Assembly: GCA_030591525.1 (NCBI GenBank)
Contig: JAUVAV010000005.1
Location: forward strand, 1 to 64,000
Reading direction: 5' to 3'
DNA length: 64,000 nt
From: a candidate division FCPU426 bacterium
GTDB lineage: Bacteria > Oederibacteriota > JAAXVQ01 > JAUVAV01
Shown: positions 3,271 to 19,781 of the stretch, in pieces
Position numbering within the stretch: position 1 is the first letter of the stretch
Layout of the letters: every line of letters starts with the position of its first letter
Made by a program: the position numbers and the translations under genes
Notes under the pieces: generated by a model
The model's input: the letters and a program-made list of their open reading frames with translations, nothing else
Databases searched by the model: none
What the model was told of the DNA's origin: nothing

Positions 3271-4815
3271 ATGGGTGGAAGCACGGCGGTTGGCGGCCAT
3301 AAGCGGGGGATGTTTTCGTCAAACTTCGGATTTTTACTTGCGGCCATTGGTTCGGCCATTGGTTTGGGAAATATTTGGCGATTTTCGTACATGGCCTATA
3401 CTAATGGCGGCGGAGCTTTTTTAATTCCCTATGTTATAGCTCTTTTAACCGCGGGCATACCGCTTTTGATCCTGGAATACGGGCTCGGACATCGCGAACA
3501 CGCGTCTGCGCCCCTGGCCTTTGCCAAGCTCAACCGCCGGACCGAATGGCTGGGGTGGTGGATGCCGCTTTTTGTCATGTTCGGGATAATGTTCTATTAC
3601 CAGGTGGTTATCGGTTGGTGCGCCAATTTCGTGATATTTTCTTTAGACCTGCGCTGGGGAGCGGATACGCAGGAATTCTTTCTCAAAAAATTTCTGGGGT
3701 TGACCGCTTCGCCGGGAGAATTGGGGGGAGTCCGGCCCTTGATTGCAGTATCTACGGGCCTGATGTGGCTGGGAACCTGGTTTATTACTTTCCAGGCGGT
3801 GCACCGCGGAATCGAAAGGGCTTGCAAGATTTTCATGCCCTTACTCCTGCTTACGACACTGATTTTGGTCGGATGGGGCATGACGCTGCCCGGGGCCTGG
3901 GAGGGCATAAGATACTATTTAATGCCGAACTGGGGAAAGCTGCTCGATTTGAAGGTCTGGATGGCAGCCTACGGCCAGATTTTCTTCACACTTTCCATCA
4001 GCTTTGGCATAATGATAGCCTATGCCAGCTATCTGCCGCGTAAAGTGGATCTAGTCCAGAACGCGGTTATCACCAGTTTAACCAACTGTATATATTCCTT
4101 TATTGTGGGGTTTGCCGTTTTTGCCGTGCTGGGATACCTGGCAATGGCCAAAGGGCTGCCGGTGGACCAGGTAATCAAAGCAGGTCCAACCCTGGCTTTT
4201 GTGGTTTTTCCGGAAGCTATTTCCAAGCTCCCTTTTCTCAGAGAGCTTTTCGGAGTACTCTTCTTTTCGGCTTTAGTTATTGCCGGGTTGTCTTCCGGAG
4301 TCTCGATCATCGAAGCTTTTACCAGCGCGGTGACGGATAAATTCAAAATTTCCCGCAAGCTGGTGGTCACCCTGCTCTGCGTGACCGGTTATCTGGGTTC
4401 CCTGGTTTTTATGACCGGCGGGGGATTGTATTGGCTGGATATTGTGGATCATTTTCTGAACCAATACGGGCTGGTGCTGGCCGGCCTGTTGCAATGTGTA
4501 TTTGTGGGTTATATCCTCAAAGCCGGGGTTTTGCGTAGGTATATAAACAAGCAGGGCCGGCTTCGGCTGAGCAAAGGCTGGGATTATATGATTAAATACC
4601 TGACTCCCATAATCCTGCTAATCATGCTGGTGCGTTCCTTGACCGGAGAAATACTCAAAGGTTATGAAGGCTATTCCACTTCAGCGTTGTTAGGTATCGG
4701 GGTCAGTTGGCTGCTCGCTACTTTAACGGCCGCCGTGGTTCTTTCCATTTATCCTTGGGAACCTTCCCGGCTCCGGGCTGACCATGTGCCGGAATCAGAT
4801 GAGCTTTTCCGTTGA
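3271..4815 (+). CDS. Sodium-dependent transporter, neurotransmitter:sodium symporter (NSS/SNF) family
   Basis: The 514-residue integral membrane protein is predicted to import amino acids or related compounds with Na+. TM1 carries the family signature: GSAIGLGNIWRF at about residues 27-38 and NGGGAF at 45-50. In LeuT-type carriers this region forms the unwound helix with the substrate and Na+ sites. About twelve hydrophobic segments follow, and the length is typical. An AGGGAGG box lies ~11 nt before the ATG. A later ATG at 3310 is possible and would drop a 13-residue basic leader. It is the first gene of an apparent operon, with 22 bp to ktrB, which ties Na+-coupled uptake to K+ uptake. Substrate not predictable. 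Confidence 0.92.
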   Translation: MGGSTAVGGHKRGMFSSNFGFLLAAIGSAIGLGNIWRFSYMAYTNGGGAFLIPYVIALLTAGIPLLILEYGLGHREHASAPLAFAKLNRRTEWLGWWMPLFVMFGIMFYYQVVIGWCANFVIFSLDLRWGADTQEFFLKKFLGLTASPGELGGVRPLIAVSTGLMWLGTWFITFQAVHRGIERACKIFMPLLLLTTLILVGWGMTLPGAWEGIRYYLMPNWGKLLDLKVWMAAYGQIFFTLSISFGIMIAYASYLPRKVDLVQNAVITSLTNCIYSFIVGFAVFAVLGYLAMAKGLPVDQVIKAGPTLAFVVFPEAISKLPFLRELFGVLFFSALVIAGLSSGVSIIEAFTSAVTDKFKISRKLVVTLLCVTGYLGSLVFMTGGGLYWLDIVDHFLNQYGLVLAGLLQCVFVGYILKAGVLRRYINKQGRLRLSKGWDYMIKYLTPIILLIMLVRSLTGEILKGYEGYSTSALLGIGVSWLLATLTAAVVLSIYPWEPSRLRADHVPESDELFR

Positions 4816-15784: not shown

Positions 15785-16921
15785 ATGGTTGAAAGAAATT
15801 CACAGCGGGCAGTGGGGAGCTTGATATTTACGTTTTTATTCATAGTGGGGCAGATAAGTTTCGCAGGGCCGTTCCCCGTCCGGGGAGAAATTCAGGCTGA
15901 GGCGGATACTTTGACCGCTGGTTCCAGAGCTGAGCGACGAAGGGAAGTGATACCGAAAGCCGGCCCCCGATTAGTTTTTGCAAAAGAGGTTTTTGATTTT
16001 GGAGAGGTAATGTCCGGCGAAAAGGTTAACTGCGATTTTCAATTTACCAATAGCGGGAAAGAGGTGCTGGAAATATTGGAGATTAAGCCGGATTGCGGAT
16101 GTACGCAGGCCGGAGAATGGGAGCCAAGGATTGATCCCGGCAAGTCCGGCTGGATTCGGATTAGTCTTAATACCAAGGGTATGCGGGGAGAGATCCGTAA
16201 GGCCATACACGGTATTATTAATGTTCCCGGGAACCCGAAATTTGTAGTATGGCTGGAGGGCCGGGTGCAGGAACCGTTTGAAATTTCTCCCCGGGCCGTA
16301 ACCTTTGGATTAATCAATCCGAGACAAAATCTGCGACAAACCGTAACCATTACTAATCGGCTTAAAGATCCAATGTTTATTTCAAATGTCCGGTGTAAGA
16401 ATCCGGAATTCATACCATATCTCAAGGTGATAAAAGCCGGCCAAGAGTTTGAGCTCATAGTGGAAGTGAAACCAGGGTTGTCTCCTGGGAAATATTCCGC
16501 CGGAGTTGAAATACAAGCCAGGCTTCCAGCTCCGGTTAAAATATGGATTCCGGTCAGCGGATATGTTCCTCCGGCCGTAGATATCCGTCCCCGCAGAATA
16601 ATTATGCGTGCCGGCCCTCTGCCCGAGGTCATGCAAAAAATTATCAGCGTCCGTTATACTAAAGCCGGTTTTTTAAAGCTATCGGAATTGACCGTCAACC
16701 CGCCCGAAGTAAAATTGGAATTAGTTGAAAAAATCCCGGATAAAGAATACCGGATAATACTCACTTTTCCACGGGGATTCACGCTTCTGAAAGAAATTCC
16801 CCTGGCAGTGACTTTCAAAACCAATGAACCGTCATTTTCGAAAGCGGAGATTCCAATTAGAGTTGATGGTTATTTTGTTCCGCCAGCGCCGATTAAATCA
16901 AGGCAGAACCAGGCGCCCTAG
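15785..16921 (+). CDS. DUF1573 (ASH-like Ig-fold) secreted protein
   Basis: The 378-residue protein has a signal peptide at about residues 10-30. The DUF1573 core (RLVFAKEVFDFGEVMSGEK, then FTNSGKEVLEILEI and CGCTQ) lies at about residues 58-160, followed by two more Ig-like segments with FGLINP and VTITNRL strands. These domains are usually periplasmic adhesion or packing modules. AAGGTGA precedes the ATG. The stop codon TAG (16919-16921) is formed exactly at the border of the element at 16918-17086. The next two genes (rhodanese-like and MauE-like) follow on the same strand, so the three probably belonged to one transcription unit now interrupted by the element. Confidence 0.8.
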   Translation: MVERNSQRAVGSLIFTFLFIVGQISFAGPFPVRGEIQAEADTLTAGSRAERRREVIPKAGPRLVFAKEVFDFGEVMSGEKVNCDFQFTNSGKEVLEILEIKPDCGCTQAGEWEPRIDPGKSGWIRISLNTKGMRGEIRKAIHGIINVPGNPKFVVWLEGRVQEPFEISPRAVTFGLINPRQNLRQTVTITNRLKDPMFISNVRCKNPEFIPYLKVIKAGQEFELIVEVKPGLSPGKYSAGVEIQARLPAPVKIWIPVSGYVPPAVDIRPRRIIMRAGPLPEVMQKIISVRYTKAGFLKLSELTVNPPEVKLELVEKIPDKEYRIILTFPRGFTLLKEIPLAVTFKTNEPSFSKAEIPIRVDGYFVPPAPIKSRQNQAP

Positions 16922-17086
16922 GAGCCTGTCGGACTTAAGTACAAAATCGAATTTTGAGCCTCTTCCCCCTTTGAAAAAGGGGGATTGAGGGGGATTTTGC
17001 AGATGAAAGCGGGCGTTTTATTGATTAAATCCCCCCTGCCCCCTTTACAAAAGGGGGAGAATGACTCAAGTCCGACAGACTCCTAG
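16918..17086. repeat. CTAG-type MITE, variant with GTCGGACTT ends
   Basis: It starts CTAGGAGCCTGTCGGACTT and ends AAGTCCGACAGACTCCTAG, a near-perfect terminal inverted pair. Inside are long complementary blocks (CCCCCTTTGAAAAAGGGGG near 16966; CCCCCTTTACAAAAGGGGG near 17039). It lies between the DUF1573 gene and the rhodanese-like gene. Its first TA+G serves as the stop codon of the DUF1573 gene. Confidence 0.8.
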
Positions 17087-17116
17087 AGGATGTTTTAAAA
17101 AGGGTGATAATGAAAG

Positions 17117-17596
17117 ATGACTGATCGGACTAAGATTTTATTGCTTATAGCAGTAGCCGGCGTGGCGGCTATATTAGTGAACTGTTTTAGGGCGAACGGC
17201 TTGCCTTGGCTCGCTGATCCGGAAGCCCCGGTTTCCCAGGAGTCGAATCTTGGGACTTCCATAGAGCTGGATGAATTACTATATTATTTAAACCGGGGAA
17301 GTGCGTTTTTGGTTGATGCCAGGCATACGGGCGAGTTTGTCGGCGGCCACGTAGTCGGCGCAGTTAACCTGCCGGCCGGGCGGAAAATAGAACACCTGGA
17401 CCGGGTGTTTGAGATGCTTCCTCCGGATGAGCTTATTATTATTTATGGCGAGGAATATCCTCCCCGGGATAGTTGGGAGCTGGCAGGATTTCTTATTAAA
17501 AATGGGTTTAATCCGAAAAATCTTCGAGTTTTTGAACCAGGGTGGAAATCTCTTAAAAATCACCAGGATATACCCATAGCCGGAGAACGGCCATGA
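17117..17596 (+). CDS. Membrane-anchored rhodanese-like protein lacking the catalytic cysteine
   Basis: The 159-residue protein has an N-terminal membrane anchor (ILLLIAVAGVAAILVNCF, residues ~6-23) and a single rhodanese domain (LVDARHTGEFVGGHVVGAVNLP; ELAGFLIKNGF; LRVFEPGW). In active sulfurtransferases the strand after LIII ends in a loop starting with Cys; here it reads IIIYGEEYPPRDS, so the active Cys is replaced and sulfur transfer is unlikely. A binding or sensing role is more plausible. The start overlaps nothing upstream, and the earlier ATG (17109) hits a stop at once. The stop overlaps the next gene by ATGA. Confidence 0.8.
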   Translation: MTDRTKILLLIAVAGVAAILVNCFRANGLPWLADPEAPVSQESNLGTSIELDELLYYLNRGSAFLVDARHTGEFVGGHVVGAVNLPAGRKIEHLDRVFEMLPPDELIIIYGEEYPPRDSWELAGFLIKNGFNPKNLRVFEPGWKSLKNHQDIPIAGERP

Positions 17597-18033
17597 AGGC
17601 GGTTTTCCAAGCAAAGCGGATAGTGGCCATTTTGGCCTGGATATTAGGCGCGGTTTTTGTTTATTCCGGGATAACCAAGAGCATAGAGCCAGCGGGGTTT
17701 GCCGAGGCGGTTGGAAATTACCGGATACTTCCCTGGTACTTAATAAACCTGGCGGCTATTTTTCTGCCATGGTGGGAAATAGCGCCCGGCTTGGCATTGT
17801 TCTTTCCCAGTTGGCGCCGGCCGGCGGCGAAAATCATTCTGATTTTAACCGGCTTGTTTACCATAGCGGTGGTTACGGCCTTAATAAGAGGATTGGATAT
17901 TTCCTGCGGATGTTTCGGTGAAGACAGCTCGCGGGTCGGCTTGCGGACGTTGTTAATTGATATAGGGATTCTGCTGGCCGGCGGGATGATTTTACGCGAT
18001 GTGGGGGGAAGCAACCCCGTCCCCCAGGACTAG
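17593..18033 (+). CDS. MauE/DoxX-like membrane protein
   Basis: The 146-residue protein has four predicted membrane helices and the family features GITKSIEP, FAEAVGNYRILP and a CGCFGED motif before the last helix. MauE/DoxX proteins are small quinone- or thiol-associated membrane proteins; MauE is needed for disulfide-dependent maturation of methylamine dehydrogenase. Here it is translationally coupled (ATGA) to the rhodanese-like gene and near a DUF1573 gene, an arrangement that suggests an envelope thiol or redox task. That role is inference. Its stop codon TAG (18031-18033) lies exactly on the left border of the MITE at 18030. Confidence 0.8.
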   Translation: MKAVFQAKRIVAILAWILGAVFVYSGITKSIEPAGFAEAVGNYRILPWYLINLAAIFLPWWEIAPGLALFFPSWRRPAAKIILILTGLFTIAVVTALIRGLDISCGCFGEDSSRVGLRTLLIDIGILLAGGMILRDVGGSNPVPQD

Positions 18034-18159
18034 GAGTTTGAGCAATTAGTCGGTTTTTTGAGAGTAGAGAGTAGACCGCATTTGAGATATTTTATCTAAT
18101 TTCTACTATCGAATCTCAAATGCTCTGGAGCCTGAGCAACTAAATGCTCAGGCTCCTAG
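18030..18159. repeat. CTAG-type MITE (copy d), at the stop codons of two convergent genes
   Basis: It runs from CTAGGAGTTTGAGCAATTAG to CTAAATGCTCAGGCTCCTAG. A second inner pair (GCATTTGAGATA / TCTCAAATGC) gives a double hairpin. The left TAG is the stop of the MauE-like gene (18031-18033). On the minus strand the right TAG is the stop of the barrel gene (18156-18158). The element near 27043 shares the same interior. Confidence 0.85.
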
Positions 18160-19781
18160 TAGTGCCAGGATAAGCTCAGCAGGCCGGACATGTGGAAGGT
18201 GGCATCTTTATCAACTTCTTGAAGATCCGGGGGCTTGTCTTCAAAGGTCCATCCTTCCGGACTGTGGGTTACACGCGCTGCCGCTGCCCCTAGATCGGCA
18301 CAAAAAGAGCCTTCTTTAATGCCTATTCCAAAACGCAGAGAGGTAGTATTAGTGGCCTGGATAACCATCGGATCCTCTAATTCATAAGATAGTTGTTGAT
18401 TGGTGAATCCCAGGCGCAGAAATAAATTTTTCACCAATTGATACTGGGCGCCGAAGGCAAAAGTCGTAAGACCCGAATTCGCCAGCAAGCCGGTCTCGTT
18501 TTCCTGCCGGCTTTTGGTGGAACCCAACCGGTATTCCATGGCTACGATAGTTCCCTCGAGCGGAACCAAGGCCGTGCCGATTCCAATGGAAGAAGAAGCG
18601 GTGTTAATTAGGGGAAGAGTTGCGAGTGTTGCCAGGTCAGTAGTCTGCAAACGGCCGGCGGGAAAAGTGTGTCCCGTACCGTGGTTGTTGAAAACCACGC
18701 CGAAACGGAGGTCATCCTTGCGGATCATGGGAAGCCTGACACGGAAGGAGAGTTCATAATTCAAGTTAGACCTGGCAGCGATTACCATCTCAGACTGGTC
18801 CTGAAAAAAAGCGGATTCCCAGGACAGGTATTGTTTTTCCTCCTGGTAACCGATGACCAGACCGATATCCATATCTTGCTTGTAATGATAAACGCTCTCC
18901 CACTGGATTTCCCACGGCAGCGAGGTGGAATCCGCCAGCCCGGCAGGTGAAGCTGAGCCGGAGAATAAGGCGGTATCAAATGAAAAAGTAGAAGAAACAA
19001 AATCTCTTTGGCCTCGTATCGACAGGCCCAAAGCAAGCTGGTCTTCCGAGTCGAAGACCGCCGGTTGGCGCCAAGCCACTCCCAACTCGGCGCCCAAATA
19101 TAGATTCTCGGAAGAGATTTCAGACTTCAAGCCCGGCATAAGCGAGCCGAAAGGGTCAAGTTGAAACCGGTCGCTTGCATGGCAGCTGCGGCCGTCCCGG
19201 CAGCTGAAGCCTGCGCCCAGAGCCAAATTCTGAAATATTTTACCAGCCGCGCGGATTTTGCCGCCGCCTGACCAAGTGCTGAAATTCGAGAATTCGTCGC
19301 TGGAGGAATTCAGATGATAAAAACCCTGGGGCAGGATTTGAAATATTATATCCTGGTTGAGCCAAGCCAGATATCCCCCGTAACCGGTACTTTGCCAGTC
19401 ATTCAGGGATGAGAAGAAAAAACCGTTTTTGCTGGTATAGGTAACATCGGGCGGAAGAGTATTGCCCAAAGGATCAAGATTACAATATAACGTATTGCCA
19501 TTGGTTTCGACAATAACGGAGGCATCCAAGGACCGGGTAGTGAATTCAGCCACGCTATAGCCTTGTTCCGTCCTTACCAAAAGATCGAGACGGTCTTGAG
19601 GAGGCAAGAACGCGGCTGCGGCGGGGTTGCCAAAATTGAAAAGGGAGAGAACCGTAGTCTCGTCTTCCAGGACCAGGGTGGGGCCTCCCAGGGCTTCTAC
19701 CGCGGGAGGGGTAGCCTCGACAGAACAAATCGGACAGCTAAACACTAGAACGGTACCTAATATCACCAGGTTAAAGCGCAT
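18156..19781 (-). CDS. Outer-membrane beta-barrel protein (FadL/PorV-like)
   Basis: The protein has ~541 residues. I chose the ATG at 19781 (MRFNLVILGTVLVFSCPICS..., a normal signal peptide) over the TTG at 19826, whose extra residues are encoded by the Shine-Dalgarno region (AGGAGG at about 19795-19800). The mature part begins with TVLSLFNFGNPAAAAFLP, the NPA motif typical of OMPP1/FadL and PorV-like barrels, and then alternates strand after strand. The chain ends in ...LLSLSWHY, a C-terminal aromatic residue as expected for a BAM recognition signal. Cargo unknown. The stop codon is at the border of a MITE. Confidence 0.7.
   Translation of the reverse strand: MRFNLVILGTVLVFSCPICSVEATPPAVEALGGPTLVLEDETTVLSLFNFGNPAAAAFLPPQDRLDLLVRTEQGYSVAEFTTRSLDASVIVETNGNTLYCNLDPLGNTLPPDVTYTSKNGFFFSSLNDWQSTGYGGYLAWLNQDIIFQILPQGFYHLNSSSDEFSNFSTWSGGGKIRAAGKIFQNLALGAGFSCRDGRSCHASDRFQLDPFGSLMPGLKSEISSENLYLGAELGVAWRQPAVFDSEDQLALGLSIRGQRDFVSSTFSFDTALFSGSASPAGLADSTSLPWEIQWESVYHYKQDMDIGLVIGYQEEKQYLSWESAFFQDQSEMVIAARSNLNYELSFRVRLPMIRKDDLRFGVVFNNHGTGHTFPAGRLQTTDLATLATLPLINTASSSIGIGTALVPLEGTIVAMEYRLGSTKSRQENETGLLANSGLTTFAFGAQYQLVKNLFLRLGFTNQQLSYELEDPMVIQATNTTSLRFGIGIKEGSFCADLGAAAARVTHSPEGWTFEDKPPDLQEVDKDATFHMSGLLSLSWHY

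Follow-up and report, generated by a model that had tools for sequence, protein, structure and literature searches.

Miniature mobile elements that insert at CTAG and their coincidence with TAG stop codons in a candidate division FCPU426 bacterium

Three genes of the window (the whole stretch of 64,000 nucleotides that was analysed) end exactly at the borders of two short repeats, which raises the question of whether such elements seek out stop codons, create them, or simply fall where their target sequence lies. The first gene (15785-16921, plus strand; PF07610, DUF1573) has its TAG stop at 16919-16921, composed of the left copy of a duplicated TA target (16919-16920, within the CTAG at 16918-16921) and the first G of a 163-bp family B element (16921-17083), which has the ends GGAGCCTGTCGGACTT and AAGTCCGACAGACTCC, carries no gene (no open reading frame of at least 80 amino acids was found inside), and is followed by the right TA copy (17084-17085) within the CTAG at 17083-17086. 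The MauE-family gene (17593-18033, plus strand; PF07291) has its TAG stop at 18031-18033, formed by a TA copy and the first G of a 124-bp family A element (18033-18156), which lies between TA copies at 18031-18032 and 18157-18158 and contains a perfect inner hairpin (18127-18156). The barrel-like gene on the other side (18156-19781, minus strand) stops at TAG 18158-18156, the second TA copy plus the last base of the same element in the minus-strand reading. The barrel protein had no match in a Pfam search, but its aromatic C-terminus (LSLSWHY) looks like a true one, because such a terminus is typical of outer-membrane barrels. The preliminary description of this DNA had stated that all three genes end at element borders and that TA plus the terminal G of the element spells TAG at each of them, and both statements match the sequence and the list of open reading frames; the copy at 18030 also serves both convergent genes, as had been proposed, their stops having overlapped by 4 bp in one CTAG.

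In the genome under study (G000; 2.70 Mb in 91 contigs), the border sequences yielded 164 matches with at most one mismatch, and about 100 elements belong to two families, of which B has the end GGAGCCTGTCGGACTT and A the end GGAGCCTGAGCAATTAGTCG. The families have in common their first 8 bases (GGAGCCTG) and the CTAG target. From the stretches around the copies, 98 paired elements were catalogued, including some pairs with decayed borders and a few that are probably mis-paired. Of the eight genomes from this taxonomic family and order that were examined (G000-G007), six contain family A. No autonomous copy of family A, and no transposase bounded by its ends, was found; a 1.4-kb interval between two A ends in G005, considered as a candidate, was set aside because the intact-looking gene inside it is not recognisable by eye as a transposase.

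Stretches of a genome of the same genus (G001) were compared with the G000 sites and supplied empty counterparts. At the MauE/barrel site the empty sequence is CAGGACTAGTAGCGCC, in which both stops are TAG and overlap in one CTAG; the MauE orthologue and the barrel orthologue (80% identical over the full 541 amino acids) stop in this same CTAG, with no element present. The empty site between the genes for ribosomal protein S20 (rpsT) and the DNA polymerase III delta subunit (holA), both named by inspection, is GCCTAGCC, again with two TAG stops. At four other sites (C34:28991, C17:59018, C41:10617 and C87:24346) the G001 gene stops at the same codon, but with TAA. The DUF1573 orthologue in G001 (C61, L109 near 11330) ends in TAA 16 codons earlier, and a deletion there extends to the start of the next gene.

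The same comparison bears on whether the insertions made the stops, i.e., whether longer genes were truncated and gained a new TAG from the element border. In every border TAG the G is indeed part of the element, but a CTAG target had the same in-frame TAG beforehand, six sites that lack the element in G001 have the orthologous stop at the same codon, the barrel protein retains its aromatic C-terminus, and at the DUF1573 site the G001 protein is shorter rather than longer. Since an in-frame border TAG must predate any insertion into CTAG, truncation cannot yield this pattern, and the idea is very improbable; longer orthologous C-termini cut by an element were not found at any testable site. 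At C87:24346 TA is followed by T in G000 as well as in G001, whereas the left border is CTAG, and the G there is therefore the element's own; this empty site indicates that the target duplication is TA only and not four bases. With TA duplicated and a G at both element ends, insertion into CTAG leaves CTAG on both sides, in accordance with the earlier proposal that TAG is regenerated at each end, and the further proposal that the proteins escape harm is borne out by the orthologous empty sites, which carry the same stops. By this route a stop within C-TAG is rebuilt letter for letter on the left of the element and a minus-strand stop on its right by symmetry, and where convergent genes have one CTAG in common, both stops are rebuilt, as the sequence and the empty sites together show.

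How often elements meet stop codons was counted in G000 after each element had been removed in a script to recover its empty site, the insertions and free CTAGs being placed relative to genes called with a home-made hexamer model trained on G000. Seventeen elements lie at an offset of exactly 0 from a stop, covering 19 gene ends, and at least three further stop-borne copies exist (C41:10617, the border of which is off by one base in the call, and one each in C46 and C52). The 17 copies on TAG stops, out of 79 non-coding ones, compare with 2.0% expected from uniform placement at non-coding TA (p = 4e-13). The elements, however, enter CTAG almost exclusively, and against free non-coding CTAGs, taken from hand-picked, non-random stretches away from the listed copies (a few of which contain older copies), the excess loses its significance: stops make up 12 of 47 occupied and 24 of 146 free sites (odds ratio 1.7, p = 0.20). 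In G001, stops are found at 3/30 border sides versus 12/126 control sides. In a diverse set of 119 loci from many phyla, retrieved by their B end and counted per side, open reading frames of at least 160 codons end at 28 of 147 border sides and 32 of 210 control sides, an odds ratio of 1.3 (p = 0.39) that shifts from 0.6 to 1.8 with the open reading frame threshold. The three data sets pooled give an odds ratio of 1.39 (p = 0.17). The association with stops that had been proposed is thus upheld against random non-coding TA and not beyond the availability of CTAG: landing on stop codons is real and widespread, yet it follows from the CTAG preference, and stops are not specially targeted, because free non-coding CTAGs coincide with them at a similar rate. 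All three point estimates exceed 1 at the thresholds applied, and there may be a small true excess at stops.

Coding sequence is a different matter. CTAG is rarer in coding DNA (0.40 per kb) than in non-coding DNA (1.18 per kb), as the preliminary description had assumed, and the CTAGs that are present there are about ten times less occupied than those at stops or between genes: with free-site numbers scaled up from the approximately 1.0 Mb sampled, estimated occupancy is 21% at stops, 16% between genes and 1.7% in coding sequence. Stops therefore behave like intergenic DNA. The explanation that very probably accounts for these observations is that two families of non-autonomous transposons (miniature inverted-repeat transposable elements, MITEs) insert at the TA of CTAG, that C-TAG stops are rebuilt and so are permissive rather than preferred sites, and that insertions into coding sequence are largely lost. 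Judging from occupancy, selection would purge most coding insertions, and copies at stops and between genes survive about equally, so that about one-fifth of the surviving non-coding copies are on a stop. It seems unlikely, in comparison, that the CTAG target and the terminal G form an evolved safe-harbour strategy, with cost-free entry at stops and a weak but real stop excess across bacteria; if that were true, both features would have been kept because even the shared stops of convergent genes can be entered.

A rather improbable reading is that stops are actively favoured, by the element or by host selection, and that copies at gene 3' ends are kept because their hairpins terminate transcription. 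The 17 of 79 non-coding copies on TAG stops are far above uniform placement, the point estimates against free CTAGs are slightly above 1, and the element RNA folds strongly (18020-18175, z = -4.9), as an inverted-repeat element would; the excess over free CTAGs, however, is not significant. The hairpin, which had been proposed as a possible terminator, finds no support as one in the sequence: a terminator scan found no stem with a T-tract at the borders of the elements at 16921 or 18033, terminator-like sites between 15 and 23 kb are at about the shuffle level (14 versus 11.1 in shuffles), and the gaps between convergent genes, which would be the best place for a two-way terminator, are not enriched for insertions (6/79 versus 13/144, p = 0.81). 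No regulatory function is needed to explain the elements.

The B end was found in Proteobacteria, Verrucomicrobia and others, mostly as a miniature of 161-163 bp, and this near-constant length across distant bacteria (window 16921-17083; L207-L325) suggests that the miniature either passed from lineage to lineage or arose more than once from a single IS1182 group. In L247, B-type ends 1597 bp apart enclose an IS1182-family transposase (NF033551, 291 bits, above the curated cut-off of 270 bits), and in L239, 1497 bp between such ends contain a second match to NF033551, at 236 bits, under the cut-off. CTAG flanks both sides of the elements in L247, L239 and L244, and of most B copies; in L247 the long B-ended element starts right at the TAG with which an integrase-like gene ends, and that of L244, the core of which is masked, starts likewise at the TAG stop of a permease-like gene (both genes named by inspection). 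A decayed IS1182 element with B ends is present in G005 (L201, 1352-2446); it also contains a DUF559 (endonuclease-like) reading frame. Since other bacteria have IS1182 transposase genes between B ends, the B copies are IS1182-type MITEs, and the shared ends suggest that an IS1182-family transposase moved family B; family A was probably moved by a related transposase. In G000 no transposase with family A or B ends and no mobilising transposase matching PF01609 or PF13358 was found; the assembly is a draft, from which the source may have been lost or in which it may be unassembled, and its absence concerns present mobility and says nothing about origin.

The alternative that these are MITEs of the IS630/Tc1-mariner type and not of IS1182, under which the CTAG/TA chemistry and the outcome at stops would be unchanged, draws on the behaviour of IS630 of Shigella sonnei, which, like the elements here, enters the TA of CTAG and duplicates TA (Tenzen and Ohtsubo 1991, as cited in PMC2170065). 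The transposase of IS630 has a DDE_3 domain, however, which is absent from both G000 and G001; G002 and G006 do have DDE_3 copies, but these carry neither family A nor family B ends, and B ends bound IS1182 transposases, an argument that covers family B and not family A. An IS630 affiliation is accordingly improbable, the IS1182 assignment being preferred. Some IS1182 members reportedly target palindromes (PMC5678879), and elements with NF033551 transposases resemble those here in having B-type ends and CTAG flanks around the transposase (L247, L239), whereas the copies in the window lack any gene and are only about a tenth as long; one IS1182 member that has been studied, IS1272, takes the place of hairpins and duplicates no target, a behaviour not seen in the elements here. 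MITEPsy1 of Pseudomonas syringae is likewise a MITE, of 100 nucleotides, inserting at CTAG or YTAA, but it has other terminal repeats and a 4-nucleotide duplication and is tied to ISPsy2, of IS5 type; the available part of its description contains no stop-codon effect (PMC3189936). The enterobacterial RU/ERIC repeats are also small, mobile, mostly intergenic and capable of forming stem-loops, with TA duplication and with some copies at gene 3' ends, but in the case described, the protein became longer because the insertion took away its usual stop, whereas here the stop is rebuilt (PMC2759123).

The elements of families A and B are thus judged to be a known kind of mobile element, the consequence of which for stop codons is mostly passive. 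They show, in a clean and countable way, how the target sequence of a transposon decides where a compact genome can bear insertions: when the target is a palindrome that overlaps stop codons, an insertion at the 3' end of a gene does no more harm than one between genes. The null model appropriate to such elements is the availability of CTAG, not intergenic length, and in annotation, stops at the borders of such repeats should be treated as genuine. A search of the open-access literature found no earlier report of CTAG insertion coinciding with stop codons.

Several arrangements of the elements were observed in addition. Elements of both families lie back to back with one CTAG in common, the border of one element being the target of the next, at C17:57242-57558 (L016, 4324-4640), C74:36044-36503 (L079) and C88:13117-13284 (L094). 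Mini-copies of 32-41 bp, approximately one end folded onto itself and flanked by TA, are present at 3004-3035 of L061 and 3004-3044 of L040, L054 and L077. At C66:15605-15970 (L074, 3004-3369) G000 has two tandem A elements at a gene stop, and the G001 counterpart (L114, approximately 4650-4760) has about 111 bp resembling the spacer between them, which is either older shared sequence or the result of recurrent insertion.
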